A DNA stretch of 21,268 bases from a virus, in IMG/VR virus record IMGVR_UViG_3300012960_000004, positions 1-21,268 of that record, one strand, 5' to 3'. The notes under the pieces were generated by a model. That model was given only the letters and a program-made list of their open reading frames with translations, was not told where the DNA came from and ran no database searches. Both the position numbers and the translations under genes were made by a program. The stretch's first letter is position 1, and every line of letters begins with the position of its first letter. Shown piece by piece: positions 12,373 through 14,050 of the stretch.

Positions 12373-13284
12373 ATGGCTATTGATCTTGCATCGATCAAGA
12401 ACGAGCTTTTCCCCGGCCTCGCCGCGGTCGAAGGTCGTTACAAGAAGATCGAGACCAAGTGGTCTCGGCTGTTTGAAAAGCGCACATCCAAGATGGCGCT
12501 CGAACGCCGTACGCAGATGGCGTACCTGCCGCTCGCCCGCGAGAAGGGCGAGGGCCAGAGCACCTACTTCGATGACCGGGCCGGTGAGCGCTGGCTCTAT
12601 TCGGCGGAGATGAAGGAGCTGAGCTTAGGGTATATTATTACCAGGAAGGCCGTTGAAGACAACCAATACCGTGCAGAGTTCAATCCTTCCAACCTCGGGT
12701 TGCAGGACGTGTTTGCGACCACGAAGGAAATCTACGCCGCTAACATCTTCAACATGGGCACTGTGCTCGATCCCACCGTCGGCGGCGATCAGAAACCGTT
12801 GTTCGATGTCGCTCATCCACTCGACACCGGCAGCGTCGCCAATAAACCGGCGGTGGACATCGATCTCAACGAGAGCACGCTGCTCACCTCGATGACCACC
12901 ATCAGGAACAACTGGGTCGATGAGCGGAATATTAAAATCTCTGCCCGCGCCGAGCTGGTGGTCGTTCCCACCGCGCTGGAGCCAGTGATCGTAAGGCTGC
13001 TTCGCACGACGTTGCGCCCAGGCACCAACGACAACGACGTCAACGCCATCCAGCACGTCGGTGGCGGCCTGCGTGATTACGTGGTGAACGAGTTCCTCAC
13101 CTCGAACTTTGCGTGGTTCGTGAAGACCGACAAGCGTGGCCTGATCTATTACGATCGCGTGCCGTTCGAGATGGACATGTACGTGGACTTCGACACCGAC
13201 AACCTCAAGGTCAAGGGCCGCGAGCGCTATGCGTTCTCGTACTTCGACTGGCGCTCGGTGTACGGGAGCTTCCCGACGAGCTGA
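12373..13284 (+). CDS. Major capsid protein (303 aa)
   Basis: Forms the icosahedral shell. The N-terminus (IDLASIKNELFPGLAAVEGRY within residues 3-23) leads to an arm, followed by a region with REKGEGQSTYFDDRAGERW (57-75), then ITRKAVEDNQYR, IYAANIFNMG (120-129), KPLFDVAHPL, LVVVPTALEPVIVRLLR and a C-terminal beta part (LIYYDRVPFEMDMYVDFDTD and RYAFSYFDWRSVYG). The KPLF-H-P block, the VVVPTALE strand-helix turn and the ending resemble Mu gpT-like HK97-fold coat proteins. A GGG/AAGGG region precedes ATG 12373. Size and place after scaffold support it. Confidence 0.85.
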   Translation: MAIDLASIKNELFPGLAAVEGRYKKIETKWSRLFEKRTSKMALERRTQMAYLPLAREKGEGQSTYFDDRAGERWLYSAEMKELSLGYIITRKAVEDNQYRAEFNPSNLGLQDVFATTKEIYAANIFNMGTVLDPTVGGDQKPLFDVAHPLDTGSVANKPAVDIDLNESTLLTSMTTIRNNWVDERNIKISARAELVVVPTALEPVIVRLLRTTLRPGTNDNDVNAIQHVGGGLRDYVVNEFLTSNFAWFVKTDKRGLIYYDRVPFEMDMYVDFDTDNLKVKGRERYAFSYFDWRSVYGSFPTS

Positions 13285-13308: not shown

Positions 13309-13923
13309 ATGGCGCGTCCTCCTGCTGGCCCAATGGGCAACAGCCCGCGCGACGTGCGTGACGACGCTGTCGGCGTTCCCGCCGAGAACGTCAATGCACC
13401 CGAGCCGCCGCGCTGGCCGCCTAAGCCGAAGAAGATCACCAAGAACACCTTCCACGCCAAGGTGAGCGGCAGTGGGGCGCCCAAGCGCGCTGATCGTGCG
13501 CCGCACTTCCGCAAGGGCGGCTGGGTCTCGGGCTATGCCGCGGGCGGTTCGGTCGAGAAGAAGCGCGACGAGCTGCCGGGCGAGAACAAGAACGATCCCT
13601 TCGCCAAGCAAAACCTCAAGGGAGGCGGCGGCGTAAAAAAAAAGGCTAGCGGCGGCGCCGTGAAGCGCCAGGAAGGCGGCTCCATCGGTGCCGGTCTGCA
13701 GGCGGCCAGGGATCGCGGCACGGTCGAGGCTCGCAAGATCATGCGCGGCGCACCACTGCGCTCGGAGAGCACCGAGCGCGCCAGGGCGCTATCCAGGGCA
13801 GATCAAGACCTAACGAACAGAGCGGCCGGTGGTCGTGGGATGCCGCGTGAGGAACGCGACGCGACGATCCAAACCTTCAATGAGACCGGCGAGTACAAGC
13901 GTGGCGGCAAGGTATCAAAGTGA
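13309..13923 (+). CDS. Basic GGxV-motif protein with possible frameshift site (204 aa)
   Basis: ATG 13309 has a GAGGAG site six bases upstream. The protein is very basic, low in hydrophobics and probably disordered. The [KA]-x-GG-x-[VI] motif occurs at about residues 70-73 (KGGWV), 79-82 (AGGSV), 115-118 (SGGAV), 123-126 (EGGSI) and 199-202 (RGGKV, near the C-terminus), as in the 433-aa protein before the scaffold. Codons 109-112 (V-K-K-K) contain a run of nine A ending in the slippery heptamer A AAA AAG; a -1 shift there would stop after one more codon and give a 113-residue product. No named family recognised; a head-associated or nucleic-acid-binding role is possible. Confidence 0.8.
   Translation: MARPPAGPMGNSPRDVRDDAVGVPAENVNAPEPPRWPPKPKKITKNTFHAKVSGSGAPKRADRAPHFRKGGWVSGYAAGGSVEKKRDELPGENKNDPFAKQNLKGGGGVKKKASGGAVKRQEGGSIGAGLQAARDRGTVEARKIMRGAPLRSESTERARALSRADQDLTNRAAGGRGMPREERDATIQTFNETGEYKRGGKVSK
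13619..13669 (+). promoter_or_regulatory. Candidate dnaX-like -1 frameshift cassette
   Basis: In order: an internal Shine-Dalgarno-like AGGGAGG (13619-13625), a run of nine A (13635-13643) whose last part with the following G is the in-frame slippery heptamer A AAA AAG (13638-13644), nine bases of spacer, and a hairpin GGCGC (13654-13658) / GCGCC (13665-13669) with a 6-base loop. After a -1 slip the next codons are GGC and TAG (13647-13649). This is the arrangement known from dnaX. Transcriptional slippage on A9 is an alternative. Confidence 0.5.
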
Positions 13924-13925
13924 CA

Positions 13926-13957
13926 CCTGCGTGCTGACCCGCACAGACGCACGCAGG
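13926..13957 (+). other. Hairpin after the head module
   Basis: CCTGCGTG (13926-13933) and CACGCAGG (13950-13957) form a perfect 8-bp stem with a 16-base loop, three bases after the stop of the 204-aa gene. No T-run follows. It lies directly upstream of a second, longer hairpin. Confidence 0.55.
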
Positions 13958-13960
13958 CTA

Positions 13961-14025
13961 GGAGAGACTGGGCCACGGCAGACCAAGCCCCCTCCCCCGG
14001 GCGTAACGGCAGGTCCAGTCTCTCC
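13961..14025 (+). other. Long 14-bp hairpin before the beta-helix gene
   Basis: GGAGAGACTGGGCC (13961-13974) pairs with GGTCCAGTCTCTCC (14012-14025): fourteen pairs with one G-U, closing a 37-base C/G-rich loop. It fills the gap between head and tail modules and ends 11 bases before the ribosome site (GAGG at 14037) of the next gene. The lack of a T-run argues against a simple intrinsic terminator; an RNase III-type processing site or pause is possible. Confidence 0.6.
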
Positions 14026-14050
14026 GCACTAATGACGAGGAAAGGTGGCT

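Follow-up and report, generated by a model that had tools for sequence, protein, structure and literature searches.

To our knowledge, slippage that yields a shorter product from a single open reading frame is known for very few genes, chiefly dnaX. In Thermus dnaX, transcriptional slippage on nine consecutive A's (A9) leads to about 50% short product, and many bacterial genomes begin to show selection against slippage at runs of nine A's (PMC1088944). Frameshifting is also described as a means of adding C-terminal domains to phage structural proteins (Ig-like domains, the T3 major coat protein, Listeria phages), and these modules are mobile between phages (PMC5009743). Here we describe an A9 run at a module junction in a gene of a soil phage. 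From comparison with related sequences, we lean towards reading this run as a selected homopolymer slip site through which a module-free short form would be made beside the long form.

An A9 run in the gene next to the major capsid gene

The window, by which we mean the whole stretch of DNA that was analysed, is a 21,268-base virus record from a soil phage with a GC content of 62%, and its genes include those for a terminase, a portal protein, a major capsid protein and a tail fibre. The major capsid protein has matches of 87-99% amino acid identity in the records of five other loci (L001, L002, L029, L018 and L030). An open reading frame for a 204-aa protein with GGxV motifs starts 25 bases past the capsid gene (Table 1). 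No Pfam or PHROG family matched this protein, and its AlphaFold2 model was mostly disordered (mean pLDDT 53, pTM 0.15). Since the gene adjoins the capsid gene, a head-related role for the protein is suggested. The elements named in a first-pass annotation of this DNA, AGGGAGG included, were all found in their reported places, although its mention of three C-terminal GGxV motifs was loose, the actual motifs being GGAV, GGSI and GGKV.

Table 1. Positions of the A9 run and neighbouring features in the window
Feature	Position	Strand	Basis or remark
Major capsid protein gene	12373..13284	+	phrog_371 major head protein, E 2.2e-8; directly upstream of the GGxV-motif gene
204-aa GGxV-motif protein (full-length product)	13309..13923	+	Open reading frame; homologues in 25 viral loci
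Conserved core through GGGGVKK	13309..13641	+	Homologue alignment; corresponds to full-length L002, a natural short homologue (111 aa, ending ...KKGGPVKK)
AGGGAGG, Shine-Dalgarno-like	13619..13625	+	Probably a by-product of Gly codons
Putative A9 slip site GTA AAA AAA AAG, codons 109-112	13633..13644	+	Sequence; retained in L001, L018 and unrelated GGxV proteins
GCT AGC after A9; the Ala codon GCT sets TAG (13647-13649) in the -1 frame	13645..13650	+	Sequence, codon census
Variable C-terminal module, ending KRGGKVSK before the stop	13645..13920	+	Alignments; missing from L002, swapped for another in L001

The A run spans 13635-13643, and the in-frame heptamer A AAA AAG occupies 13638-13644. 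The run had been described as very rare for so GC-rich a sequence, and this was borne out: it is the sole A/T run longer than seven in the window, where the dinucleotide content would predict about 0.009 runs so long. In this phage GTA accounts for 3.4% of Val codons and AAA for 17.6% of Lys codons, and the probability of the string GTA AAA AAA AAG, given the peptide VKKK and this codon usage, is about 0.0009, or about 1 in 1,200. Reading of the -1 frame confirmed the predicted outcome of a slip, in which GGC (13644-13646) would be followed directly by the TAG, giving a 113-residue form that ends in KKKG. Stops are close in both other frames, lying one codon (-1) and five codons (+1) downstream in the window, two and zero codons in L001, and two and five in L018. 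When these three sequences were combined with the unrelated GGxV proteins L134, L137, L101 and L089, the nearby-stop test gave p values of 0.003 (-1) and 0.03 (+1), which, as with the p value below, are optimistic because the sequences are related and not independent.

Two inverted repeats, CCTGCGTGC/GCACGCAGG and GGAGAGACTGG/CCAGTCTCTCC, lie in the intergenic stretch after the gene (13921-14030). Both persist in L001, L002 and L029, and the second is also found in L053 and L059. The repeats show apparent paired changes, for example from GAGAC/GTCTC to GAGGC/GCCTC, and judged by these features the stretch is likely to be a structured RNA element, although Rfam gave no match.

Distribution of the run among phage proteins

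An N-terminal alignment of ten homologues of the 204-aa protein was scanned against IMG/VR and identified 25 loci. At most of these the protein is short (75-115 aa) and reaches no further than a GGxV-like motif or just past it, with the C-termini RRGGFVRR, RKGGWVRK, KKGGPVKK and VVKGGIKKIGGKA, each directly before the stop. Longer homologues bear an extra C-terminal part that varies between relatives. The short homologue in L002, a record that shares a 99% identical capsid protein with the window, has a natural stop at the junction (GTC AAG AAG TGA, 111 aa), and L053-L056 and L059 likewise end exactly there (L053 at 115 aa); none of these short forms carries the A run. Three long lineages, represented by the window, L001 and L018/L023, all carry the A9 run in the same place within GGxVKKK, and have kept it even though the fourfold-degenerate sites of their major capsid genes differ from those of the window by 34% (L001) and 46% (L018). 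The -1 slip products would be 113, 114 and 117 aa long in the window, L001 and L018, respectively. Thus, slippage would recreate the natural short form.

The long forms L029, L039 and L183 are without A9, so the run is not essential for having a module. The first-pass annotation had held that homologues with synonymous AAG substitutions in the run would speak against its reading, and one such homologue was found: L183 is near-identical to L018 up to VKKK, yet it writes GTT AAG AAG AAG and has no early -1 stop. The run was nevertheless kept in L001 and L018. An A/T run of at least nine is conserved beyond coding need in part of the soil family, with three long lineages having it and three long forms lacking it. 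In isolate phages, tblastn with the window protein, L182 and L101 found no recognisable relative; all examples are uncultivated virus contigs, and there is accordingly no cultured model. Scanning of cellular-genome contigs with the N-terminal alignment found no homologue.

Pattern scans detected the A9 cassette in further GGxV-motif phage proteins, and the arrangement GGxV-A9-x-GCT with a stop in the -1 frame is also present in the unrelated proteins L134, L137, L101 and L089. A codon-neutral census of V-K-K-K-x-A-(codon starting with A or G)-G-G recovered 62 coding sites. The full A9 was present at 19 of these, all of which (19/19) wrote Ala as GCT and had an immediate -1 stop, after two codons; the same combination was seen at 19 of the 43 sites without A9 (Fisher p 1e-5, kinship between sites ignored). 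Because GCT before a codon starting with A or G gives the stop at so many sites without A9, the immediate -1 stop counts as supporting and not as decisive.

Most of the A9 sites in the census come from one marine family, which was re-collected by its N-terminal domain, blind to the codons at the A9 site. All 17 distinct sequences carried exactly GTA AAA AAA AAG, whereas elsewhere just 3 of the 77 codons for conserved residues showed no variation; the conservation of Ala as GCT was unexceptional by itself. The +1 stop is more distant in some members, up to 18 codons away. The natural short members L236, L246 and L254 are without A9. Across the marine relatives L229-L252, one N-terminal domain is joined to several unrelated groups of C-terminal modules, many of which hold a zinc-peptidase-like HExxH motif (YHELLHKGH, AHEVVHAAL, THELMHKG). 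In L241-L243 and L250, an extra module precedes A9 and displaces it by about 240 residues downstream, and its usual place is taken by GGFIANNED or GGFIANEDS.

The arrangement is reversed in L026 and possibly in L019, neither of which is orthologous to the window gene. In L026 (24-628), the 0 frame reads just one more codon past KKK before its stop (KKKR), and the -1 frame leads into a DUF6582-like domain (Pfam match below the curated cut-off) that is in frame in L001 and L029. This -1 frame has no evident start codon and is a candidate for slippage that makes the long form. In L019 (3260-3500), an MRHGG-repeat protein runs up to A9, and a lipase-like module (GHSLG) is encoded in the -1 frame; an ATG lies soon after A9, so separate initiation is possible. 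Relatives with differing shift directions are a criterion for transcriptional slippage (PMC3711429).

A search of 257 billion bases of cellular-genome sequence for a similar A9 pattern gave nine matches. Only one of the nine (L255) has an in-frame GGxV before A9, and its frame ends within six codons, with no module. No description of the GGxV/A9 cassette was found in the open-access literature.

Readings of the A9 run

Both -1 ribosomal frameshifting and transcriptional slippage are compatible with A9 and its nearby stops. The first-pass annotation had proposed a programmed -1 ribosomal frameshift of the Escherichia coli dnaX type at A AAA AAG, with a Shine-Dalgarno (SD) sequence upstream and a stem-loop downstream acting as stimulators. 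This is consistent with the in-frame heptamer, with AGGGAGG nine to twelve bases upstream, with a stable 60-nt fold downstream in the window, with the -1 stop that always lies next to A9 in the census, and with the G-rich stretch that also precedes A9 in L001 (dG -15.2) and L018. When the flanks were recoded synonymously and SD pairing and the downstream fold were compared, however, the anti-SD pairing was matched by 25%, 22% and 4% of the synonymous versions in the window, L018 and L001, respectively, and by 53-100% of those in L101, L089 and the marine relatives. With 25% of versions pairing equally well, AGGGAGG largely follows from the Gly codons, and it is not conserved as sequence among relatives. 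A 5-bp stem, GGCGC/GCGCC (13654-13658/13665-13669), can be drawn but is absent from the local 36-nt minimum free energy structure (z -0.1). A different, larger 60-nt downstream fold is stronger than its shuffles in the window (z -2.4) and is unusual there only (1.8% of synonymous versions); under the same recoding, the downstream fold was ordinary in eight relatives, including L001, L018, L101, L089 and marine relatives. The dnaX-type stimulators were therefore rejected by the recoding test. The earlier comparison with dnaX holds for the slip site and its outcome, and its stimulators were wrong or unproven; where it had called for conservation of all three elements, the A run was conserved (L001, L018 and the whole marine set), GC-rich phages included, but AGGGAGG and the stem were not. 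Frameshifting of this stimulated kind thus appears unlikely, although it merits continued consideration. Conservation takes in the whole A9, the A of GTA outside the ribosomal heptamer included, and this points to transcriptional slippage. Since the stimulators are not conserved and stops are near in both other frames, slippage of the polymerase would be favoured over stimulated slippage of the ribosome.

The run and its flanks might instead be a short DNA stretch for the exchange of C-terminal modules by recombination, conserved through that exchange and playing no part in decoding, and the module boundary at A9 is real: the window and L001 are alike only up to A9, L018 and L183 share their N-terminal part and diverge from GGV on, with A9 and module changing together, and the marine N-terminal domain has several unrelated partners. 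Yet the codons beside the invariant A9 vary synonymously (GGC/GGT, GGA/GGG/GGC/GGT, GAC/GAT), which would make a poor seam, A9 coincides with the immediate -1 stop, and the long frame of L026, being the -1 frame, would require slippage; we consider a pure recombination seam distinctly improbable. Phase variation, in which the length of the A run would change during DNA replication and toggle the C-terminal module between genomes, could draw on the mutability of nine-A runs and on L026 as an off-by-one variant. It is hard to reconcile with the lack of any A8 or A10 in the unbiased marine set (17/17 A9) and with the presence of exactly A9, in frame, in several phage lineages, and we give it very little weight. 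Least credible is that the run arose by chance from the codons of a Lys-rich linker, or that it is an assembly error. Such linkers often contain KKK, which L183 writes with AAG codons, but the codon string is improbable under the codon usage of this phage, and independent contigs and samples show the run again, in frame and in the same position.

The reading that we prefer, a selected slip site at the module junction, would operate as follows. A swappable C-terminal module would have been added behind a C-terminal GGxVKK motif, with A9 placed at the joint. Faithful decoding would give the 204-aa long form, and misreading of the run, at some level, the short form. The likeliest route would be the addition or loss of an A in the run by RNA polymerase, with ribosomal slipping on A AAA AAG possibly contributing. 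The shifted mRNA would stop after one codon (-1) or five codons (+1), and the product, ...KGGGGVKKKG, would match the natural module-free ends ...KKGGPVKK and ...RRGGFVRR. From one gene the phage would in this way obtain, at a set ratio, both the module-bearing form and the ancestral short protein, whose GGxVKK end is exposed, and the two forms would probably be used in or near the head. Since the GGxVKK terminus is common to slip products and natural short forms, it is suggested to be a C-terminal recognition signal, which is a testable idea; the full-length form also ends in KRGGKVSK. On the simplest reading, modules would be inserted behind this signal and the slip site would maintain the module-free protein.

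The recurrence of the cassette at module junctions across phages makes the finding broader than the first-pass annotation had stated. More tentatively, and short of even confidence, we propose that GGxV-A9-x-GCT-R may be a portable, virus-specific decoding cassette by which many unrelated tailed phages add swappable C-terminal cargo modules, HExxH peptidase-like ones included, in a set ratio to proteins of the virion region and go on producing the module-free GGxVKK form. If this is true, a phage version of such slippage would recur at module junctions, and many annotated phage structural proteins would be two products. A9 after GGxV would then offer a simple sequence signature for finding such proteins, and the stoichiometry of module-bearing virion proteins would become testable.

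Comparison with known slip systems

The tail assembly chaperone pair G/GT resembles the present case in having a slippery A-run in a phage, and tail-assembly-chaperone-like gene pairs appear to use A9 itself as their -1 shift site in L016, L070 and L130, as well as in L141, L090 and L110. Gene position and protein are different, however, and the slip there extends the protein. The C-terminal domains that frameshifting adds to phage structural proteins are alike in that one gene gives two C-terminal variants of a virion-region protein, but in those systems the slip makes the long form, whereas here the short form would be the slip product, with the module in frame (except in L026 and L019).

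Escherichia coli dnaX likewise carries the heptamer A AAA AAG in frame, and a slip on it meets a -1 stop after one codon and gives a shorter product. It differs from the window gene, to which it is unrelated, in that here the SD sequence and stem are not conserved and the longer A run is. In Thermus thermophilus dnaX, as in the window gene, a single open reading frame encodes the long product, the sense strand carries nine A's, both other frames soon reach a stop, and the short form, predicted in our case, is the N-terminal part of the long one (PMC1088944; PMC5009743). The gene is a different one, and the comparison sets dnaX against a phage head-region protein with swappable C-terminal modules, in which slippage is predicted.
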